This document shows, piece by piece, positions 4,105 through 23,712 of a stretch of 64,000 nt of DNA (the first letter of the stretch is position 1; every line of letters starts with the position of its first letter). Source of the stretch: Allacma fusca (taxonomy: Eukaryota > Arthropoda > Collembola > Symphypleona > Sminthuridae); contig OX359250.1 in the NCBI GenBank assembly GCA_947179485.1, positions 42,168,600 to 42,232,599 on the forward strand, read 5' to 3'. A program made the translations under genes and the position numbers. Under the pieces are notes generated by a model. The model was given only the letters and a program-made list of their open reading frames with translations. It was not told where the DNA came from and made no database searches.

Positions 4105-7100
4105 TCATACATTGTTTTTTGCCTGCAACATCGCATCAATCCAATCTCGGTAATGTGTAACTTTTGTAAAAACTGTGTAATATTGTTCCTCACAGCCACT
4201 GCCCCGCCTGCGTTGAACCCCTGCACTCACAATTCCCTTCACTACCAACTTGTCCTTTTCCTGGGGATGCTTAAACATCAGACCTCCTCCACTGTCACCA
4301 TCGCAGGCTGTGGTACCTGTTGATTGTTAGGAAAAATAACTGATCAAAAAGAATGACAGTCAGTAAGTAAGCTACATGCGAAGTTATCGTGAACATGATT
4401 CCTTTTTTGATTTCACTCTCAATAATAATTCCCTTACCGTTCCTGTAGCCTGCACAGAACGTTGAGGCTCGGACCAGCGTTACAAAAGTTGGGTGAGATT
4501 TTTTACAAGTTTGTATATCTACCACGGGTAAATCTACTTCTTGTAATTCTTCACGAATTTCCCGGTTATTGGACCTACCCCAGCCCGGTAACTGTTCCAT
4601 TAAAAATTATAATAAGTTATCAAAATATTTGAAAAAAAATGAAACTATTTAAATGTAACACGGCTACTACAATATGTGATACTATTTTAGAAGTTTTTGC
4701 TATTTATTGTTAGTAACACAATAATGGAACCCACAATTCCTAGGCTGAAATCATCGTCTCCGGGCACAACATCTTCACGTTTAGAGGGAAGACAAGCGGG
4801 TCTCACTCCATCGGTGACATCAACTTCCTGCAAGGAATATTTATTTAGTTTAGTTTTTCAGATTTGTAAGTTTCCGATTGTGCAAGATTTACGATCAGGG
4901 AATTTGCAAATCAATGCTTATGTTTTACCTTATCAAGCCATAAAATGGCAATATCTCCTTCAAAGTTGACTGTATTGTAATACTCATTAACGTCGATATC
5001 AACAACTCTTCGTCTCTGAGCGTACCTGTCCTTGTCGTCATTCTTGTCAAAACTGCGGTGGTATTTTCCGGGGATGACAATAATACGGTCGGTTCGCTTA
5101 TTGGAGGTTCCGGTTGTAGTGGCACAATGGGCGGCTGTAAGTACAGCCCTGAGAGAAATTAAAGTTCCTCCACAGTAGTAATTAAATGTGCCGGAGTTGG
5201 GAGGGTCTTCGTTGTACAAAGCCACATGCCAGGGCCAGTCATAGGGAGCTGCTGTCCGTCCTTGGATTATGAGGGGTATTGGACGCACCGGTTTGAACCC
5301 ACAGGTCAAGTTGCATTTCCAACGTGGATTTCGCGTTGACCAGGTATTGTTTTCCTTACAAGTTATCGAGGCTGTGGTCGCACCTGTTTTGGGGGAGGCG
5401 TAGTACTTGGCACATCTACAATGTTGTAGTAATCACATTTAGAAACAAATATTTGTGTGTGTCCAGTCTTAAAAGACCTTTAATTTTACGAAGTTTATTC
5501 CAACTTACGAGTAGGTGATTTCTGCTCCAATGGGGGATCTTATCTTCGTACAATCAAAAAATCTACCGCTTCTAGGCATATAACAAGAGATCTCAACTCC
5601 TGACTCCTTTGGCAAGACAGGGCATCCTCTCTTTCGGGGCTGGACACGAATTGCAGGTACATTATCTGGTTGTGACAAATCATCAATGTACTGTATACTG
5701 GTGGTAGTTAATGGAGTTGTTGCAGCCTGAGGTGGCCATGTTGAGGAAAATTGTTCGAGAAAACCTGGGAATGGCTGATAATTTTGTACTGGATTGATAA
5801 TTTGAACTGGGTAGAAATTTTGAGTTACTTTTTTGATCGGTTCTATGATTTGTTGGGGTTTGGACGTGGGAGGGCTGAGAGTTGACAAGCGTGGGCGAAA
5901 CGGTCTCCTGAGAAAGTTTCAAGTTTTTTATAAAATTCAGAATCAGTAATTCAGAAGTACATCATTATAATTAAAAAGTGAACAAGTAATCAAAGGGTTT
6001 AAGGCACACTCACTTTGAAGAACAGAGATCGGTGGCTTCATCATTTCCTCCTACAAAATAAATTCCAAATAAAATATTAACTCAATTAATTTCACGTATT
6101 CGAATTAAACCATAATTATTCCTGGATTTTAACATGATTGAACATCCATTGTTCCTATTCATCCACATTTCAGAATGGTCCACGACTCACTGGGAACCCA
6201 TTCGAATTTCTTTCTACATGTAACGAGCCTCTACGACTAGAATTAAAAAGTTCCATTTAATTTTTTTCAAATGTCAGCTTTCGATTAACTTTTTTGGCCA
6301 TGAATGATCTCGAAATGATGACCGGTTCCAAGTGGAATAATTATTTCAATGAACATAATCCATATAACACAAGGGGGGATTAAATCATTCGGGGTTATTT
6401 CTGTTGAGTATAACTGCGGGGATTTGCGACCTTGGGAATAAGAGCGTACTCCGTTGGCTGAATAATTTCTTTAAATTAAATATTTTTGAGCTAATTTTGC
6501 TTGAGTTTCAGTGAGAAAAAGCATATTTTTTGCACTTGGCACGGTATTCCTGATGATTATGTCATGAAATATTTGCACAGGAATTATGGTATTGTTTTTC
6601 TGCCCGATAAAACTTACCCCAGCAGTCGGGTACCCCATCACATTTTTTGCTTTTAGGAATACAACCTCCGAATCGACACTTTAGTTCTTGCAGGCTAAAC
6701 AACATTAAACACAATTAAACACGTAAATAATGTTTAGGTATTTAAATACAATTTAATATACATATGCCATTCATCATGTATTCATTTCTGTAAAAACAGG
6801 AAATGATTACAAGTGTGACATAACTACTAGTTTGGTGACTAACTGGTCTCCATACCTGCACTCCGTCTGTAATGTACTTTTAGTACAGTCCCACTGACTA
6901 TTTCCTTTTTCGTCCTCACCGTTTTGACAATTGTCAATCCCATTGCATAATTTTTCGGTTGAAAGGCAACCCGACTCATCCGCACACCGGAATTCATTGT
7001 GATTACAGGGGTTCTTCAGTTGTCCCGTGACACCTTGGAAACAAATTCACAATTGACTTGAATCAAATAATTACACAATTTTTTTTATCGGGTTTCCCGA

Positions 7101-11434: not shown

Positions 11435-12206
11435 TAGGAAGACGCCGCGATTAGCATGCACACGCACTTTCATGTATATATAATATGAAATTCCATGGAA
11501 TGAAAAAACATAAATATGCTAAAAACAACGGACGTTCCTTCCGCCTAGTACTCGAGTACTCTTGCATGTGGATATAATATCAAGTACAGTCCACAGTCTC
11601 TATACGAGATTCCCTTATGAAAGAACTGTCTCCAAAGTGTTTTAAATATTTGGGCACATTCCCGTTGAGTACTCTTCCTTCTTTTCCTTATGACAGCGGG
11701 ACACTGTGGGTCGAAGGCCGATTAACTTGTTAGAGCTGCGTTTATAACGAGAGTGCGCAGCATATTTGTGGAAATAATTTAAATCCTCTTTAAAAGAAAG
11801 ATTTGAAAAGGCAAAGATCCAAGGAGTATAGCTGGATGCTTACATATATATCTACACATATTCCTTAAAACTTGTAATCATTTAGTAGTACATTCATTTT
11901 GCCAATGCTTATGAAATGCAACAAATTCCAACGCACGGGTAGTTACTTTGTTGAGTTAGTTAAGTACGTAGTAGAAAGTCACACAGTGCCCCAGGAAAAG
12001 TCAAAATTACTCAAAATGGACGTCAGGTCATGAGAATTGAAAGACCAGAAAATTGCGTTATAAATTTGGCGATTAGAAACCACATTTGATCTCCTTGGAT
12101 TATCATTTTAGCGACTTCACATATTTATGGTTATACCTACATAATGGGTAGAAATGAACACTGGTAACAAGAAATTGAAAGACTACAAAAAATTGTTACT
12201 GTTTTA
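11435..12206. other. Spacer between convergent genes
   Basis: Between the 3' ends of the disordered-protein gene and the carboxypeptidase-like gene. No gene or repeat seen. Confidence 0.6.
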
Positions 12207-15161
12207 TCAAGACAAGGCAACGAATAATGTAAGTATTGCAATTAAGACAGAAAAGTAAGTATTCTTTTCTAATCCCTTCCCGTTGTGAGTAACAGTCAAA
12301 GTTCTGGGAAAAGCCTCAAGCTCGTGAAAATCTGAGTCGGGAGTTTCAGCTGACATATTTGAACGTGGATGATTGACCAAATGACGAATCTCCTCAAATA
12401 CTCGAGCGGCTTCAATGTCATCGAAGAAGGGATCATTACTGTGGAGAATTTGTTGGTGATGTGGGGATGATTCAGTGAATCTGTCTGGTTTTAGAACACC
12501 ATTAACTTGCTTATTCCGGAGTCTTCTTCGCTTGCCCTTGCTATCCATCTCAATCCTCAGTTCAAGGGGTCCCTCCATGCTTATTTCAAAGGGCACTGCT
12601 TTTGTGATGTAGTTCTTGAAAAATGCCTGCAATAATATCAAAATATAAAACAAACTGGATTTACCTGAAAAAACGTACAATCAAATCATGTTATTAAAAA
12701 ACTATCCGGTTTGGTAACCTTGAGGCGGTATCTTCCAGGTAATAGCACTCGCCAAAGTTCGCCTCGTGAATTTGTGAAAAATGGCATGGGAGGTCCTTCC
12801 CCCTCAAGGTGTTCACTTCTGTCCACAAAAATGCAAACTTCCACATTCGACATCGGTTCATTGGTTTCTGAGTCTACAACTTGACCCCGGAAGCTGTACT
12901 CGGCTTCACGGATTAAACTGATCATGGCCTGTCGAAATTTGAATCAACAATAACAACAATATTATTATATCTTTATACCCGCATTATTAAGCCTACTAAT
13001 ATTTGAACTGTACGTTAGAATTAACTTACGAATTTATTTATCCTCCAAATATGCTCCAGGTTTTTAGGATTATTATCATTTCGACAGCAGGATACGCCAA
13101 TCAACAATTCAAATACTCCACTGTTGTAGTTGAAGTCCATCATTGTTCCTGAAATTCACATAGATACTTGTAATTAAGTCTTACAGCTAATTTTATCTAC
13201 AGTCATTGTGTAGACAATTTTAGTTCTAAAGTTTCTCAATTATTTCTTTGTACCGAATACTCTCCTTAAGTAGTTCAAAATGTCCGTAAAGTTTTACCTG
13301 ACACGCTGTGCCACTCTGCACCGTTGATGATTCCACCTTGAAATTGTCTCTTCAGAGTTGGACAGTTCCAATCGGTTGTGTTGTGCTGCTCGTTCACAAA
13401 TCCCACGTAATTTCTAGCTAAGAATTGGAACGTCTCATCGTCAGGTGTTTCATGCGCTGTGTTCTGTACATCTATGGGCATGAATCATTGAATCAGAATT
13501 AATTACAAACATTTTGGACGTCGGTATTTCCTGTAATCATGTCGGGATTGATTTGTAGCAAAACGAAAAAAATCTGAAAAAAGTAATGAAGTTGCAGAGA
13601 GCACTCTCTTTATAAGAGACGCACTTGCTGTAGCTCTTACAGTGACTGGCTCTGATACGGCCAGAAATGACATTGGGATAAACATTAAACGGAAATGTAA
13701 CAAAATATTTTTGCTCTTATAGAGGAAGTGCTACTGAACAGGATGTCACTCATAAAAACAGTGGACTGTATTAATTTGAACACAACTCACATCCCTCTTG
13801 AGGAGAGGTGTCATACGGGTAGCTAACAACTTGGGCTCCGCTGATGAAAGAGGCCGAAACAATAAAGTTATTCTGCTTGATCCAACCCATCATGGCCTTG
13901 GTTTCCATCTCCAAGGGAGGATCATCTTCATGATCATCATGGGGATGAAATATGTCCGGAAAATTACGATTCAAATCCACGCCATTAGCATTTAGTCTGT
14001 CATAAATTATTTATTCAGTCAAGTAATTAGCTTTAGATTTCTGAAAGTCAACTCATTTTTTACATATGAATTGTTCCAACAATAAGAATACACTAACGAA
14101 CAAAAAATTAAATCAAATCATCTCATGTCCTGAGACAATATCAGATTCCTTACCTTCCATCCTTCTTAAAGCATTCCCCAGGCAAAGACTTGGCGTATCC
14201 ATCAGGATTCATATTGGGGATGATGTGTACTTCGGCTTTGTCAATCAAATGCTTTAGCTCTGCATCTGTGTCATAATTTTCTAGAAGGAACTACATCAAA
14301 TAAAAAAAATCCCCAAATTACTACGAAAGGCGTTTCCTCAATATAATTTGAATGCTGTGAAAAACTCATTATTAATATTAAATTTAAATAGGGGAATTCT
14401 ATTTTTTGTTACCTTAATGAGCTTAATGAGAAGTACACAGGCTGGTCCGGAGAAACCATTTAAATTGCCCACGAATTTGACTTGCGGTTTCAGTAATCTC
14501 CTTGAAGTAGAATCCTCAGAAATTATTATTGTCCACAGCTCCCGGCCTTGCAACAAACGAAGGGTTTACCTTGATTAGTGTCTATTATCAATTTATAGTT
14601 GACCTTATTTTTTATAGTTGATCTTTTTATTTTTTTTATAGCTAATATTTTTAGTTTTTTTTTATAGTTGACCCCCTATTTATTTACAGACCTTCTAAAT
14701 ACTACAACTTGTTCTAACTTGGACACTCCGTACAATTAACAATAATTATTATAGATTCATCATCAAAATATTACAGTGCCTTGAGCCCTGCAGAGGACCT
14801 ACTCTTCCAAGGGGTCTCTAATAGGAAAGCACATTTGACATTTGCAGATTGTAAATGAGTCCATACCTTGGGTAGAGTTGCCTATTGACACGAGTCTCGC
14901 CACGGAGCTGTATTTAATAGCTACCCAGTTCAGGTAGCGTGTGACATCTTCATGATGACATGTACTCTTGAGGTTCTCTTCCGATATTGCCGTTTCCCGT
15001 TCACTACTGAATTCTGAGTCATCCGCACTGGTGAAGTAGTTACAGTTGAAGAGGAGGACCAGGATTATCACAACTTGACAGAGCGTCATTGCTAAAGAAA
15101 CGTTCCGACGAACTAACGGTGGGCGCGTAATTAGAGGTAGAAGGTAATGAGGGAGCAGCAT
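12207..15161 (-). CDS. Catalytically inactive M14 carboxypeptidase-like protein (8 exons, 564 aa)
   Basis: Exons: 15161-14867, 14546-14413, 14290-14154, 13996-13791, 13471-13298, 13148-13030, 12928-12719, 12626-12207 (1,695 nt). A second in-frame ATG at 15089 gives a cleaner signal peptide (MTLCQVVIILVLLFNCNYF). The fold is that of the CPE/CPM/CPD regulatory carboxypeptidases: GRELW, NMNPDGYA, DLNRNFPD, SYPYDTSP, NGAEW, then a transthyretin-like domain (about 345-440) and a hydrophobic C-terminus suggesting a GPI anchor as in CPM. The active site is gone. The HxxE zinc pair is N128-G-F-S131, the third zinc His is I240 (ASFISGA), the catalytic Glu is G333 (LLIGVSCC) and the Tyr after NGAEW is H312. 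Asn-Arg of DLNRNF remains. So this is a folded pseudoenzyme, perhaps peptide-binding, rather than a pseudogene. The donor of exon 7 (GTTACC) is weak. Confidence 0.88.
13593..13770 (+). mobile_element. MITE-like element in a carboxypeptidase-like intron
   Basis: Left end GAGCACTCTCTTTATAAGAG; right end closes with ACAGTGGACTGTA. It contains the family module GGGATAAACATTAAACGG followed by TTGCTCTTATAGAGGAAGTG. It fills most of the intron between exons 4 and 5. Confidence 0.5.
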
Positions 15162-17571
15162 CTGATGAGCACAGTTCCGTAGGAATTTTTACCAATGCTA
15201 GTCATACTGACGGGAGATAACTGAGCTAAATATGTCAGGGATGAATAATGAGGGGAGAAGATTCACTGGAAGTGTTCTTGTTTTCAGTTTTGACAGATTA
15301 TTGACACTGTTATGGCTCAAGTATTAGGAGGACTAGACTACATGATAATGGAAGGGAGTTCTACGCAGAAACAAAGAGCTAGGAGGAATTTACGACTTGA
15401 GTGCTTTCAACAGGATGTACGAAGGAGAATCTTTTTTTTCCCCACTCTTGATTAAGTATCGAATATCCAACAACTTGAGTATAGTATTGGACGTAAACTT
15501 TCGGCGGATGTTTCCTCCAAGCTTATACATGTGTATAAACTTTGAACGCCTCACAATCAGGGATGAATTGGTATGAGTTTAGAACAGTTAAGAGCTATCG
15601 AGGGGTTTTTGTTTTTTTTGTCTCATGCAACAAATTTAACTCATGGAGATAAAGCCCAAGAGATTTACTCTGCTGGCTGAGGAACATATAATATTTCCTT
15701 CTTCCGTAAGGACTCCATCAAATTGTGACATTATGCTTCCTTCAAATACATTGAAAAGCATGCTAAAAATATTGAGCTTGTAGTTGACAACGTACAGTCC
15801 CCACATCTCCAGGGGGTAAATTATTTTTCTCCTATAAAGAGTGTGTGTTGTGTTGTACATAAATTACTGCACAAATTAATAAATTGTACAAACACAGTCA
15901 GAGTCACGCTATTCCAAGATATGAATCCCAGATAATGTAACAGGACTTATTATTGATGTCAAAATCAGATGAAGTTTCTTCGTATGTACGTATCTATATA
16001 GTGCTAAGATTTCCCAGTAAACTGCCCGGAAATGGAATCCCTGTGTTTGCAAAAGTCAAAACTTGAAACTTGTCAGTAATGTACAAGGCTGCTCGAGCAT
16101 GTATTTGTAAGATTGCCTATATAATATCACCGTACTCCATTTACTGATAATGATCCATGTTTACATGTGGACTGTGTGTAGAAAGCGTTTAAGAACAAAA
16201 AATCATAATATGGGAGTAAGTTGAGGTCTACATAATAAAAAATCCATATGTAGTCCAAGCATTAAGGCTGTTGTGAGGGTCCAAAATGTATATAGCCTGC
16301 ATATTTTAATCTTCCTTTTTAAAACCCATTTGGATTCACTGAAAGCCCATGTTCAGGGACTGGAGAGGAGCTTGTAAATACCCATTAGAGATGTGCCTTG
16401 TGATTGAAGATTTCCGGAGTGTGCAGAGAGATTGGGGCCAGCCCCATCATAAGATGCGTTTACATATAAATACTACAGCGTACATATGCACCTTTATTGT
16501 GTGGGCATAAGTGGGTCTTAAAGTATCGATACATGTGTATATTGTAGCATAAAATATGCTGTTTTTTTCCTACTCTGCAAAAACATTCAATTGATTATAA
16601 ACGGAAATGATTCTTCAAGCATTAGCATTTAATAGTAGGGGCTTAAAATTAGATGTTATTACTGTTTAATCATGATGATTTAAGGCACTGATAAAATGTT
16701 AGTGATTTTTATTATCGGAGGAGGTAATTTGCATTAATACGGAAATTGCCTAGGATTTGGAATAGATGCCTACATACATTATAAGGGTTTAAATAGATCT
16801 GTCAATTTTACTACGTAATCATTATGATGGAGCTTATTTATATGTAGATTTTATTTACTTGATTAATTACTGAATGCCTTATACCAGATTTACGGCTGTT
16901 TAATCTCAATAAAACTAACAGTTTGATTAGTTACAATAATTTAGTTCGAACACTTGATGTAAGATGCTAAGAGAGTTTCTCTTTTTTAATAAAATAACAC
17001 AAACATGATCCAATATTCACGCGTTAATTTATAACATCTCCGATAGTTTACAAATGACAGAAAGAATACTCACATTAATTCACATCAATTGAATAATAAT
17101 AATTGTATTTTCCTGTAAGAAGGAACATTCTCTGATATGTTAAAAATGGGCATGACATATTGATATGTTTCTTGAATCCCAGCAACATTATTGTTATGTA
17201 AAACCAGTTTACATATAATACTGTATGCATGGAAATTGCAAAAAATATAGATACAGTAAAATTCTGGTTTATAAGGACTATAAGGAATCAGAATATGAGG
17301 AATCAGATTATGAGGAATGTCTTGACATTAAGGGAACTTTGCTGTCCAGCAGCCCACTATACTTACTGTAATGAGTGATATAACCATAAACACAAGTGAT
17401 TGACGTTTATAAGAGACACATCCAAAATATTTTACTGTATTTTATAAAAAAGCAGTGCAAAATGACAATATGTCGGAAAGGACATATTGTAGTAAAATAT
17501 TAGAGTTTAATATCATTAATGCTACCCCCTTGCACAATAACCCCCCGTGGTATTTGTACCATTAAAGCTAA
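15162..17571. other. Gene-poor spacer
   Basis: AT-rich intergenic DNA upstream of the carboxypeptidase-like gene. Short frames only, with no domains or coherent exons. A run of related phrases around 17255-17420 (CAGTAAAATTCTGGTTTATAAGG, then TTATAAGAGACA) may be a further decayed repeat. Confidence 0.55.
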
Positions 17572-17905: not shown

Positions 17906-20900
17906 TTACACTTGTTCTGCATCTAATGCTAGCAGCTCAACTAGTTGTGCCAACTCGGCTTGAAGATGAACCTGTGCAAGGCGCTCACCAGACTCTTGCG
18001 TCGGTAAAATATCTCGGTTGGCAAAAATCGAGAATGCCAGTTGACCATTGTGAGAATACGCCGCGGCACCCAATGCTGAAAGCAGCAAAGAAAAAATGTC
18101 ACGGTACTCTTATACTCAGAATTTATAGTGTTAATTTATTTGTATTAATATATAAATAATTAATGTTAATTTTCTCAATAGTACCAGTTTGTTTATACTG
18201 CAGGCCGATTACTTTATACAAATCGACGATATCATGTCCACAGAGCTGAGCCTGTCCATCGTACCCTGGAAGGCTTGTGAATGACATATTTGTGAGGTAT
18301 TTCCTGGAAAGGACCAAACTATAGATTGGAGCAGGTAACAGATTGGCAATTGTACTTTGAAGATCCAGTAGTTTTTGGTAATTGTTCTCGGTAAAGCCCC
18401 GGAAGTACTCCTCCGCTTCATTTAATCTATCCAACGCATTGTGACTCTTCAATGAGACTTTGAAAGATCCGGCACTCCTAAAAAAATAAAAACGTCCTTG
18501 ACATTATCATCATTTATTTTTTTCATTTCTATTTTTGTGTCAAATAATGTCTCATATTTTCTCACCAATGATTGCACATTCTATCAAAAGGGTGGTCAGG
18601 TCTTGGGAGGAGGTGCATGATCTTCAAGAAATCCGGTATTTCATTGATGTCTTGACGAGTTTCCAAAAATAATCTCCGGAGAGCACCCCCAAGTAAACTC
18701 AGCCCAATTGTAGCAAAGTGACAGTTGGTTTTTCTCCGAATGGATTTAATGACTTCTAATGGGATGCTAGTAATTGCCAAAACTCCTGTGGTATCTTCCT
18801 TCCGGTGGTTTATCGGATTTTTTGCGAACATTTCTTCCAGGAAAAAGTTTACTATCCATGCCGGGGCCGTCCAAAAGAAATAGAGCTAGTCATAAAATTA
18901 TAAGGACATTATAGTCATTATTAGGGTGTCACAAACACACGTCAGGTCAGGACTGGGCTAACAACAACTCTCCGTCTGTTATGTTATGAACTTGCTGGAT
19001 ACGCCAATACTAAACACAGCTTGAGACTCCTACGAAGTCCAGTACGCAAAACGTAACATGAATTGCAACACAAATACGAAACGGAGCTCTCTTGCTATAA
19101 GGAACCCCCTTTTATGAAATATTAAATAATATTAATAAATAATGCTAATTTTACTGTTTATAAGAGGAAACCCCTGTAATAACTAAATTTTACAGCTTTT
19201 AGGACCCTCTAATAAAGAAAGTTATGATTCCGAACGTCACCATTTTTAAAACTATATTTCATATACAATGCAGCAAAACAACTTGCAGCTTGGTAAACTA
19301 ATCTCACTACAAAAAATCAATTGAACTGATAATGAAAGCAGTAACGACCTTTAAATTTGCCCTATTACCGATGGTACATTCACTTCAAAAAATTTTGCAG
19401 ACACAGTAAAATCTTGTGAGTAGGGGTCGGTTTATAGGAATTTCTATACATAAGGAAAACATTTACTTGGTCTCACCACCCATTTACAAGACGCTTAAGA
19501 AACTCCTTACGAGAGATAGTTTTTTAAAGGGAAATCAAAAATCCTTTCAAATCCCTCTAACAAGGTGTTTAACTGTAATGCTCAATTTTGCTTCTTGCCA
19601 TTATCTAACAATATTTAAAATATACATTTCGAAATCCATACTTTCTAAATGGAATGACCTGAGCAGGTGGTAATTTTTAAAATTCAGTCAATGTAATGAT
19701 GTAATGGATCCAGTACTCGGAGTTCTGCCTATAATGCATCTTAGTAACGTAATCAATGTTAATAGTAATTAAATTATGTAAATTATTATTGCTTCACTTG
19801 GAAATAGCAGTGCAGGAGAACTTAGGTGAGGAACAACATAAGGTATTGGTATTGGATAAAATTAACTTTCCAAGTTATTATATTATTAACCCTTGTTGGA
19901 GCATTTATCTCTGTAGGAAAATATGTCTCAGATTCCCCTTTACCAATATGTTCATTTGACTCCGTAAAGGAGTATGTCACTAATTATCAGTCAAATTTTG
20001 TGCTTTAGTGGTAATGTTACAGAGCAATGATGGGCACTGCATAATGACAATACAGATACCAAACTCTCCTTCTCATATTCATTCGTACAATTTTGGCAGG
20101 TTGAGCATAAGTTACGTTTACAGAGCTGGACGCAGTTTGTTATGTCAGGATGTATGTATATATGTATAAGTAATGGATTAGTATGCACCTTCTGCTTTAA
20201 GCTGAGTTCCTCCTGTTCCTTTACCAAGTACCGGCTTTCCTTGGAGATCATCTCATCCACAATGGAATTAAGACTGTATCCATCAGCGATGACATGATGA
20301 ACTCGGAGAATAACCACAGATTTCTGTCCCTGGAAATTATTAACCACAACTACTTCCCACAGAGCGCTTTGATCGGGAAATGGACTTGTCATCATTTCCC
20401 CTAAATATTTCGACAGGGATGACTCACTCACGCACCCATTCTTGTTCATATCATCCGTCAGGATGGCCTCCTTGACGTGCAGATCCACATTGACAGGAAC
20501 CTCTGTCCAAAAATAGAACCAGCCGAACCGACGGGGCACTTGATGAAGCCTCTGGAACTGCCATCGGTCCTTGGCCTCACTGCCATGGGAAATTCGCTTG
20601 TATAAAATTTTATTGCAAAATAACTCCCGGATGTCCGACAGACTCAAGTGTCCGTCAAGAATAAAACACTTGAGTGTGCTGGCGTGAGGGCGAGTGTAAA
20701 AGTTATCCACAGCAAAGACAGTGTCAAAAAATGACAAGGGCTCTCTGCATTCCCCTCCACTCACTAAATTACACACCAGTGTGACCAGGAATTTCCAGAA
20801 AATTAGAGGAACCAATGAGAGGAACAGCCCGGGCCCCACCACCACACACCCAATACATGTTAGGAGTCTGCTGATGAACAGGACCACTGGTGTAAATGCT

Positions 20901-20941
20901 GTCAACGTTCCCAGTCTGAGTAACGATCTCTTTGAGACCAT
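17906..20941 (-). CDS. Wax ester synthase/DGAT-type O-acyltransferase (4 exons, 511 aa)
   Basis: Exons: 20941-20189, 18885-18566, 18477-18185, 18075-17906 (1,536 nt). The catalytic motif HHxxxDG is present as HHVIADG at 215-221, in the context VVILRVHHVIADGYS. The N-terminus has about 50 hydrophobic residues (13-60), enough for one or two membrane helices. The C-terminal half carries the family's second domain, with a SLPGYDGQAQLCGHDI stretch and then AAYSHNGQLAFSIFANRD. These enzymes join acyl-CoA to fatty alcohols or diacylglycerol at the ER or lipid droplets, making wax esters or triacylglycerol. Length fits the family. I chose ATG 20941; the in-frame codons upstream have no ATG. Intron 1 is 1.3 kb, but the phases match with no missing exon. 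Substrate preference cannot be read from sequence. Confidence 0.88.
19081..19230. mobile_element. MITE-like element in the acyltransferase first intron
   Basis: Left CGGAGCTCTCTTGCTATAAG; right end reversed AATCATAACTTTCTTTATTA followed by GAGGGTCC. Imperfect terminal inverted repeats of the common family. Confidence 0.4.
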
Positions 20942-23712
20942 GTTCAGTTTCAACCACGACTCTTGCTCTCACCACGTAATCCTTCCGCTGTAACAGTTAC
21001 TGACTATACTCTCACTCTCGCGGCAATAATGAGGCTCAGTCGGTCTGTCAAGTGAGGGGAGAGCCATTCTTTTGAAGTAGCTAAGTCGGTAAAGGTCAGT
21101 CTGAGATTTGAACACAATCGCATGCTTGAGTACCTTCCAAGTTGCAATCAAGTATTTATTTTATTATCTTGCTCATAAAAAAACTTGTACTAAAAAAGTT
21201 GACTACCAAAAATCATGTTCTAAATCCAAAAAAAAGTACTTGTTTGAAGGTGCAATTATAGAAACATGCTTGGCCAACCTGAACCTTCCCAATCCCAAGA
21301 TGGGCTGCCAAAGGGGGAGACTACGGTATCAACGGTTTTGAGAAAAACATAGTCCCAGTATAGTCCCAGAGGTATGCGAAATCTACAAATGTTGTTCCGG
21401 GAAGGAATTTCACTTAATGCTAGAGATGCAAATTTAGATTATAATTTTTACTATTTACGTTCTCCTCCATCTCAGACACATATGTACGTTTTTAGTGGTA
21501 ACATAAATACACCTGCCTTGACAGGTGATCCAGCTCAGAATAATCACTGGTCATGGACAAACGATTCATAGGCTCATAAAAAAGTCCATGTGGAGGAAAT
21601 TAATGTTGTATTGAAACTTTGTGTGTATAGCCAATGGTTAAATACAGTGTAGTGACGGCAAGACTTTATGTCCAAGGTGAGACGGTTTTGGTCTTTAAAG
21701 ACAATACAAAAAGTAACCAATTAACAGGAACTTGTATTTGTATACATGTAGCAAATTACGCATATTATGTGTATTATTACAGTAATTACTTACATATTTG
21801 CGGTTCTCATATATGATGGATCCAATAATTGTGGGAAGGGAATTATGATTGTCAACCCATCACGAATTATTACATTGTAAACAATATTTTACATCACTGA
21901 GAATTCATGCCTTACACTTAACTACAATAATAGTTATTACCCTAAAAAATTGTACCTCCTGTAACTTAATTGACTTGGCACGTAGTGGAAATTGATTCGT
22001 AATTGTCATTTTGATTAGTCTTAAATCTAAGGCCCCTTTTTGCGGTTTGGTTTTTGCAACATTATAAACTGCGGTCTTAAATGTCAACCAATAGGTATAG
22101 ATGCTGGCCAAGCTATTACGTGCCAAGGATCAGGTTAGTTATCTTCAGTTTTATTCTTGGTCATTAATGCTGCTGCCGTCAAGAAAGTATTTTCTTATTT
22201 TGTGCTCATATAATATGTTTCTCTCCTCATGTTGATGTCTATGAGCAGGTTGTGGCGGAGAACCTACGCAGATTATTTTTTCAATTTCCTTAAGTTGTCA
22301 CAGGTTTACAAAAATTGTCTTCATTGGATCAAGTTCAGCTTTCAAGTTATTTTCAGGGATTTTTCCTCCTCAGTTTTACCCCCTTCACACGTCAGTAATA
22401 TTATTCTTCTCATAAACCTCGGAAAAGTATTTTAATTCTTTGATGAATGATACACAGTATAGTCATTCTATGAGAGCACTCCTGTAGCTCTGTTAGGCCC
22501 AAGCTGGGATGTAATGGTATGTACTCTTACAAGGAGAAAAATTAACATTGGGGTAAACGGGAATATAATCAGACCTATGGATAAAATGCATTAGTGATCT
22601 CCCATAGTGAGGGGTCACTGTACCAGCTTATTATTTTTTTTTGTAGTAAGTACTTTAGGAACAAGGATAAACCGTAAGCTTGTATTCTTTTAAATATGAA
22701 ATGCTCTGTGATCCATGCGTTGGAGCGTTACATGATTCATGTTGAGGTATATACGATATATGATGCACTAAATAATGGACTTCTTTAATAATTCTTTGTT
22801 GTCGAAACTGGATAAATTGTTGATTAGCATGCGAGGAAATATTCATGCATGTGTGTAGCCAAGCCTTGAATTCTGGCAACTGATGGGAATGTTCGATGTG
22901 CATACTCACACTCTTGCATAATTATCGTAAAAAAATCTCACGTTACAATTTTTCTTAAATCATATAAGCACTTTATATAGATACGCTCTGAGGAGTATCT
23001 ACGTGAGGGATTCTTACGGGCCAGGTTAAAGGCGTCTGACTCATATTATCAGCAGTCGTTTTTATAGTATTTGATGCAACGTAGATATATGTAGAATGTC
23101 AGTATCGAAGTCTAAAGTCAGCCGTGTATGTATAACCTTCAGTGTTTTCCCGAATCTGTGATCAACTATTATGGGATATGTGGTAGATACTGCTGCCGAG
23201 CTGCTTCGTGCTACGTGCAGAAAGCAAGTACAACTGGAAATCCCGTGCTGATTGTATCTGTTCGATTATCTATGATAAAAGAAGCTTTGCACTTCATTAT
23301 GTAACAAAAAATCGAATGGAAAAACTAAAAGCGGTCGTCTTCCAGAAACATAGATGCTAAAAGCAAGGTCATTGTCATTGCATATAGGTTCGGTTCATGA
23401 TAAGTGACACTTGCAGACACTATAATTATATGTGTATGTCATTTATCGCTTATTTCAAGATCCCTCACAGGAGACTAAGTGCACATTGCAATGGAAAGAC
23501 TCATGGAAGGTGATCATGTGGAATGCTGGCCTTAGAGATTAAATCTCAACAGGAGGATAGCAACATTTCGATAGTACTCATTACGAAATACAGACGCAGT
23601 TACTGCGAAAAAGTTACCACTGTATATAAGATCCCAATGAACAACATTGTTTACTTCTACTAATGACAAATCGTAAAAACTTTGATGTAAACATTTGGAA
23701 ATGAATCATGAT
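20942..23712. other. Intergenic region; no gene recognised
   Basis: Upstream of the acyltransferase and downstream of hydroxylysine kinase. Contains one MITE-like element (22453-22622) and otherwise short frames with no support. Confidence 0.55.
22453..22622 (+). mobile_element. MITE-like element
   Basis: Left ACACAGTATAGTCATTCTAT; right reversed TACAGTGACCCCTCACTATG. The internal module ATTGGGGTAAACGGGAAT matches the copies at 8388 and 45276. Confidence 0.55.

Follow-up and report, generated by a model that had tools for sequence, protein, structure and literature searches.

The window analyzed here, which is the whole 64-kb stretch of DNA of the springtail Allacma fusca, contains on its minus strand an eight-exon gene (15089-12207) encoding an M14 carboxypeptidase-like protein in which all the catalytic residues have been replaced. 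We refer to this gene, located on C9 (chromosome X2), as the dead gene, and to its product as the dead protein. All seven introns are of the GT-AG type and the joined exons are free of stops. The features of the gene are given below; the codon positions in exons 2 and 4 were counted by hand from the spliced model.

Exon 1, 14867..15089, minus strand: N-terminus hydrophobic and signal-like, then the beginning of the M14 domain; ATG at 15089, alternative ATG at 15161
Exon 2, 14413..14546, minus strand, 134 nt: HxxE changed to N-G-F-S; N104 codon at 14460-14458, S107 codon at 14451-14449
Exon 3, 14154..14290, minus strand, 137 nt: NMNPDGY motif and first two bases of the codon for R165 (Arg127 equivalent)
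Exon 4, 13791..13996, minus strand, 206 nt: VDLNRNF kept, with the N174-R175 codons at 13971-13966; zinc His replaced by I216 (13845-13843); S1' Asp kept as D227 (13812-13810)
Exon 5, 13298..13471, minus strand, 174 nt: NGAEW followed by His288 in the place of the catalytic Tyr (codon 13310-13308)
Exon 6, 13030..13148, minus strand, 119 nt: catalytic Glu replaced by G309 (13098-13096) and S1' Gln by M295 (13140-13138)
Exon 7, 12719..12928, minus strand, 210 nt: C-terminal transthyretin-like domain, located after the Pfam M14 match (50-329)
Exon 8, 12207..12626, minus strand, 420 nt: end of the C-terminal domain, linker, and a hydrophobic, GPI-signal-like tail up to the stop

Translation from the ATG at 15089 yields a protein of 540 aa, and translation from the alternative ATG at 15161 one of 564 aa. 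The former is preferred for two reasons: hydrophobic, signal-like residues follow it immediately, and an acceptor-like TTTCTTTAG lies a short way upstream. The finding of a dead active site is independent of this choice. A previous annotation based on the sequence only (hereafter, the sequence-only reading) had described a reading frame and introns preserved over 564 codons; the uninterrupted frame and the introns hold, and of the two lengths the shorter is preferred. An acceptor-like CGTTTCTTTAG is present at window positions 15089-15110, just before the preferred ATG, and a 5' UTR intron is possible. According to its hydropathy, the N-terminus is a putative signal sequence. The C-terminal tail, which runs to the stop codon, has a 17-residue hydropathy of up to 2.21 at residues 522-524 and could, by the same measure, be a membrane (GPI) signal.

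Ten of the 38 listed neighboring ORFs were scanned against Pfam, which gave trypsin-like, WS/DGAT, APH, ABC and IFT81 matches and an FGGY match below the cut-off. Four of the 10 had no match, and no functional link to the dead gene was seen among the 10. The trypsin-like domain (4911-5432, minus strand) contains a TAAHC motif, and a proline-rich ORF without Pfam match (5505-5918) is located upstream of it. The WS/DGAT match, to an acyltransferase of the wax ester synthase type, is at 19991-20968 on the minus strand. Rfam and tRNA scans of the window gave no match.

The dead protein belongs to the M14 family, as it matches PF00246 with an E-value of 1.4e-54 over profile positions 2-283 of 286. 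Its five best solved relatives are 1uwy (carboxypeptidase M, CPM), 3mn8 (which we take to be Drosophila Silver, a CPD), 1h8l (CPD domain II), 2nsm (carboxypeptidase N, CPN) and 9j6z (carboxypeptidase D, CPD). The identity to these proteins is 34-38% over 314-361 aligned residues; the best of them, 1uwy, is 36.7% identical over 341 aligned residues. The alignments extend into the C-terminal domain and reach residue 404-424 after crossing the second domain of these relatives, showing that the transthyretin-like domain that follows the catalytic domain in the N/E (M14B) group is present. The Pfam scan gave no separate match for this C-terminal domain at E 0.1, and no discoidin domain was found.

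The roles of His69, Glu72, His196, Tyr248, Glu270 and Arg127 in bovine CPA have been described (PMC5683605, PMC7698808); the same sources assign binding of the substrate carboxylate to Asn144-Arg145-Asn146, and basic specificity to positions 207 and 255. We derived residue equivalences from a star alignment of the dead protein with its five solved relatives. In the numbering of 1uwy, the zinc ligands H66, E69 and H173 are replaced by N104, S107 and I216, and the catalytic residues Y242 and E264 by H288 and G309, while R127 (R165), N136-R137 (N174-R175) and D184 (D227) are kept. Hence, in terms of bovine CPA, the zinc ligands His69/Glu72/His196 are absent from the dead protein, as are Glu270 and Tyr248, and the substrate-binding residues Arg127, Asn144 and Arg145 are all present as R165, N174 and R175. 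The replacement of every catalytic residue and the retention of the substrate Arg of DLNRNF (R175, aligned with the Arg145 equivalent), both claimed by the sequence-only reading, are therefore borne out. Without zinc, Glu270 and Tyr248, the M14 mechanism is impossible. It should be noted that in M14 carboxypeptidases the zinc itself helps to hold the substrate. Changes are not limited to the catalytic residues. The residue pair responsible for basic specificity in the N/E group is incomplete: the S1' Asp (207) is kept as D227, and the Gln (255; Q249 in 1uwy) has become M295, a loss absent from the list given by the sequence-only reading. Two further invariant residues near the site are changed, a Gly to T293 and a Thr to L307, at positions that presumably line S1'. 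The S1' floor of the dead protein is thus changed (Q>M, T>L, G>T).

Exons that restore the His and Glu residues had been named by the sequence-only reading as a finding that would overturn it. When the motif peptides (zinc, His, Tyr, Glu) of the intact springtail genes described below were compared with the window, homologous context was found only in the known dead exons. A scan of the minus-strand frames of 12100-16499 detected four HxxE motifs, none in homologous context, one of which (12326) is in the frame of exon 8. Neither search of the genomic DNA, therefore, found such an exon.

When the Allacma fusca genome (392,743,791 bases, 91 contigs) was searched with the dead protein, the scored candidates included 21 matches with E-values of up to 10. 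Eight of these are the dead gene's own exons, at C9:42180809-42183688, and the dead gene was found only once. The other 13 are located at four places:

CPD gene, C5, two domains modelled in the stretch examined: 7 matches
M-type gene, C5 (X1): 2 matches
E/N-like gene, C9: 3 matches
Digestive-type ORF, C1: 1 match

The HxxE motif, the third His, the Tyr and the Glu are all intact in the gene models of the M-type gene, the E/N-like gene and both CPD domains, which suggests that the genome keeps active enzymes. The matter of an active paralogue elsewhere in the genome, raised by the sequence-only reading, is thus answered by the intact M-type gene on X1 together with the intact E/N-like and D genes, all predicted to be active. 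The dead gene on C9 (X2) and the intact M-type gene on C5 (X1) reside on two different X chromosomes; the group to which Allacma fusca belongs has paternal genome elimination. The match on C1 (C1:21061339-21062175; ORF L001:1447-2751, minus strand) is an uninterrupted M14 ORF of 434 aa with a digestive (A/B) look, in which HxxE, the third His and the Glu are present. It is the strongest PF00246 match in the genome and is possibly a retrocopy. Genome-wide, there are 116 exon-level matches to PF00246, with clusters on C12 (~11.66 Mb), C1 (~36.1 Mb) and C8 (~16.4 Mb), which suggests that carboxypeptidases have expanded in Allacma fusca.

Exons 2, 3 and 6 have equal lengths in the dead gene and the M-type gene (134, 137 and 119 nt). 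There are two open models for exons 4 and 5 of the M-type gene: spliced alignment guided by 3mn8 or 2nsm gives 188 + 174 nt, and guidance by 1uwy gives 192 + 164 nt. Under the former, which is the one used, exon 5 has the 174 nt of its counterpart in the dead gene and intron 4 has the same phase, and under the latter this is not the case. Introns 2, 3, 5 and 6 are common to both genes in position and phase under either model. As to the outermost shared introns, intron 1 of the M-type gene is seen from its acceptor only, and intron 7 from its donor only. Judged by eye, the exon patterns of the other intact genes differ from that of the dead gene, and the only intron clearly shared with CPD domain I is the one before GMQD. 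The tree, however, leans to CPD domain I: in the best tree, the dead row joins the CPD domain I sequences (support 83/90, without the tool's star), and the identity of the dead protein is highest to CPD domain I (37.3%, versus 35.6% to the M-type gene). In AU tests, neither placing the dead row with the M-type gene (CPM grouping; p 0.35) nor placing it with only the springtail CPD domain I (p 0.19) was rejected. The tests did reject an E/N-like origin, both when the springtail gene was the sole member of that group (p 0.0004) and when CPN was included (p 0.02), and a CPD-II origin (p 0.022); a processed copy is ruled out by the introns. Based on the introns we infer that the dead gene is of M-type parentage; a CPD-I origin is ranked second only because one intron is clearly shared with CPD domain I, compared to four to seven with the M-type gene. 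The description of the protein as CPE/CPM-like by the sequence-only reading therefore survives in part: the intron pattern ties the gene to the M-type, but the E/N-like grouping is rejected and the best tree points to CPD domain I.

Nine active sequences share 62 invariant columns, of which the dead protein keeps 46, including none of the five catalytic ones; in the five-sequence star alignment it keeps 59 of 84. In a leave-one-out comparison, each active sequence loses 1 to 5 invariant columns with respect to the other eight, compared to 16 for the dead protein. All five catalytic columns are among these 16 (hypergeometric p 0.0007), and the losses cluster: 14 of the 16 lost columns are within 7 residues of a catalytic residue, versus 13 of the 46 kept ones (p 5e-5). 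Clustering is also observed within 5 residues (p 0.0002) and within 10 residues (p 0.002), and when the five catalytic columns are left out of the 7-residue test (9 of the 11 lost ones near, p 0.002). Replacement of the five catalytic codons needs at least 9 changes in 15 bases. In a neutral simulation that started from the present coding sequence and included substitutions only, without indels, the frame remained free of stops in 11 of 400 runs at 0.05 changes per site, in 1 of 400 at 0.1 and in 0 of 400 from 0.2 up. Under this simulation an open frame is implausible at the divergence observed, and long selection on a non-catalytic role is therefore likely. The identities between the dead and the M-type genes at codon positions 1, 2 and 3 (0.47, 0.575 and 0.32 over 247 codons) fit a coding sequence under selection, but they reflect both lineages. 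The branch of the dead row is very long (4.91; 1.94 under LG+G4), which fits relaxed selection as well as redirected selection. Most likely, selection was still acting on the gene when the substitutions arose; selection, which the sequence-only reading had favored over decay, is thus the better explanation in the light of the simulation.

In its architecture the dead protein resembles carboxypeptidase M (M14B; 1uwy) in that one catalytic-type domain is followed by a C-terminal domain; it has a hydrophobic C-terminal tail, and its intron pattern fits that of the springtail M-type gene. CPM is GPI-anchored. Unlike CPM, the dead protein has no zinc ligands, catalytic Glu or Tyr, and its S1' Gln is replaced. 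Table 2 of a 2024 review lists as M14 pseudopeptidases AEBP1, CPXM1, CPXM2, CPD-III and Ecm14 (PMC11266112). According to this table, His69 is kept in all five, Glu72 in four and Arg127 in three, and Arg145 is substituted in all five. The dead springtail protein is the mirror image of these five, having lost His69 and the other zinc ligands and kept Arg145. Like the dead protein, whose anchor is putative, CPD domain III has been conserved during evolution as an inactive M14B domain of a membrane protein. However, it is reported to keep His69 and to have replaced Asn144/Arg145/Asn146 and Arg127 (PMC5683605, PMC11266112), whereas the dead protein keeps N-R-N and the Arg127 equivalent and loses all zinc ligands; moreover, CPD-III shares its protein with two other domains. 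AEBP1/ACLP, CPXM1 and CPXM2 are likewise inactive M14B homologues with non-enzymatic roles, and CPXM1 and CPXM2 also keep Arg127, but according to the review they differ in keeping two or three zinc ligands, in the substitution of Arg145 and in having a discoidin domain (PMC11266112). Yeast Ecm14 is similar in being an inactive protein with a single M14 domain and Arg127 kept, and is described as different in being of the A/B type with a prodomain, with its zinc ligands kept, Arg145 changed to His and Glu270 to Lys (PMC11266112). No arthropod protein of the CPM type with a dead site was described in the open-licence full texts that were searched, a negative that carries little weight.

Taken together, we tentatively propose, with rather less than even confidence, that the dead gene is an old M-type duplicate kept under selection, and that its product is a pseudopeptidase that binds C-termini non-hydrolytically at the cell surface by means of its clamp. 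An old duplication of a single-domain M-type gene would have generated an intact copy, now on X1, and a copy on X2 that lost zinc binding and hydrolysis while its product stayed folded, secreted and probably GPI-anchored. The carboxylate clamp (R165, N174, R175) would bind the C-termini of peptides or proteins at the cell surface without hydrolyzing them, and the protein may function as a peptide co-receptor, a receptor modulator or a sink. Retention of the clamp points to a free C-terminus that is bound and not cleaved. It should be noted that 46 of the 57 non-catalytic invariants are kept and that the chance of keeping all four of R165, N174, R175 and D227 is about 0.41, and the clamp is therefore not singled out. 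Since the S1' floor is changed, the ligand need not end in Arg or Lys. Kinin bound to CPM activates the B1 receptor even though no agonist is generated, and CPM modulates the receptor (as reported in PMC5539221). Peptide binding has also been proposed for CPD domain III, and Glu270 is described as not needed for binding (PMC5683605). A more specific version, namely a pure C-terminal-peptide receptor or decoy in springtails, with no chemistry left, the clamp retained and a pocket adapted through Q>M, T>L and G>T to a different C-terminal residue, we consider unlikely.

Doubtful, though a possibility to be reckoned with, is that the pseudopeptidase is selected and its pocket irrelevant. The protein would then be an adhesion or receptor module at the cell surface that acts via other faces of the fold, the clamp having been left by chance or for structure. 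The loss of pocket residues around the dead site agrees with this, as does the fact that the clamp is kept no more often than the other non-catalytic invariants. Some metallopeptidase homologues do use other surfaces, in the case of AEBP1, CPXM1 and CPXM2 probably the discoidin domain (PMC11266112). With respect to structure, all five tabulated M14 pseudopeptidases have a substituted Arg145, and the fold therefore does not require this residue (PMC11266112). Yet the dead protein has kept it, together with the Arg127 and Asn144 equivalents. It is improbable that the dead protein is a regulatory partner of its intact paralogue, associating with the M-type enzyme or competing for its substrate: a paralogue with matching gene structure is indeed present, but we know of no requirement of CPM for a partner. 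We give as little credence to recent silencing, by which a gene functional for most of its divergence would now be a pseudogene yet to gain a stop. The gene is fast-evolving and was found once, in one species, which would fit; the frame and splice sites, however, are undamaged, as are the two hydrophobic ends, and the rarity of stop-free frames at even 0.05 and 0.1 neutral changes per site implies that any silencing must be very recent. Finally, an artefact, namely an intact enzyme masked by misplaced or alternative exons or by a sequencing error, is very improbable and largely refuted, for although the gene model comes from sequence alone, exons 2, 3 and 6 match the paralogue in length and two of them carry replaced catalytic residues, no alternative exon was found, the changes are spread over four exons and need at least 9 bases, and the assembly has a reported QV of 58.7 (PMC10427803).

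The dead protein, with its intact sister gene as a built-in control, would provide a direct test of whether the carboxypeptidase cleft can function as a peptide receptor without metal or catalysis. Such a role of the cleft has been proposed for CPD domain III, and is a reported side activity of CPM.
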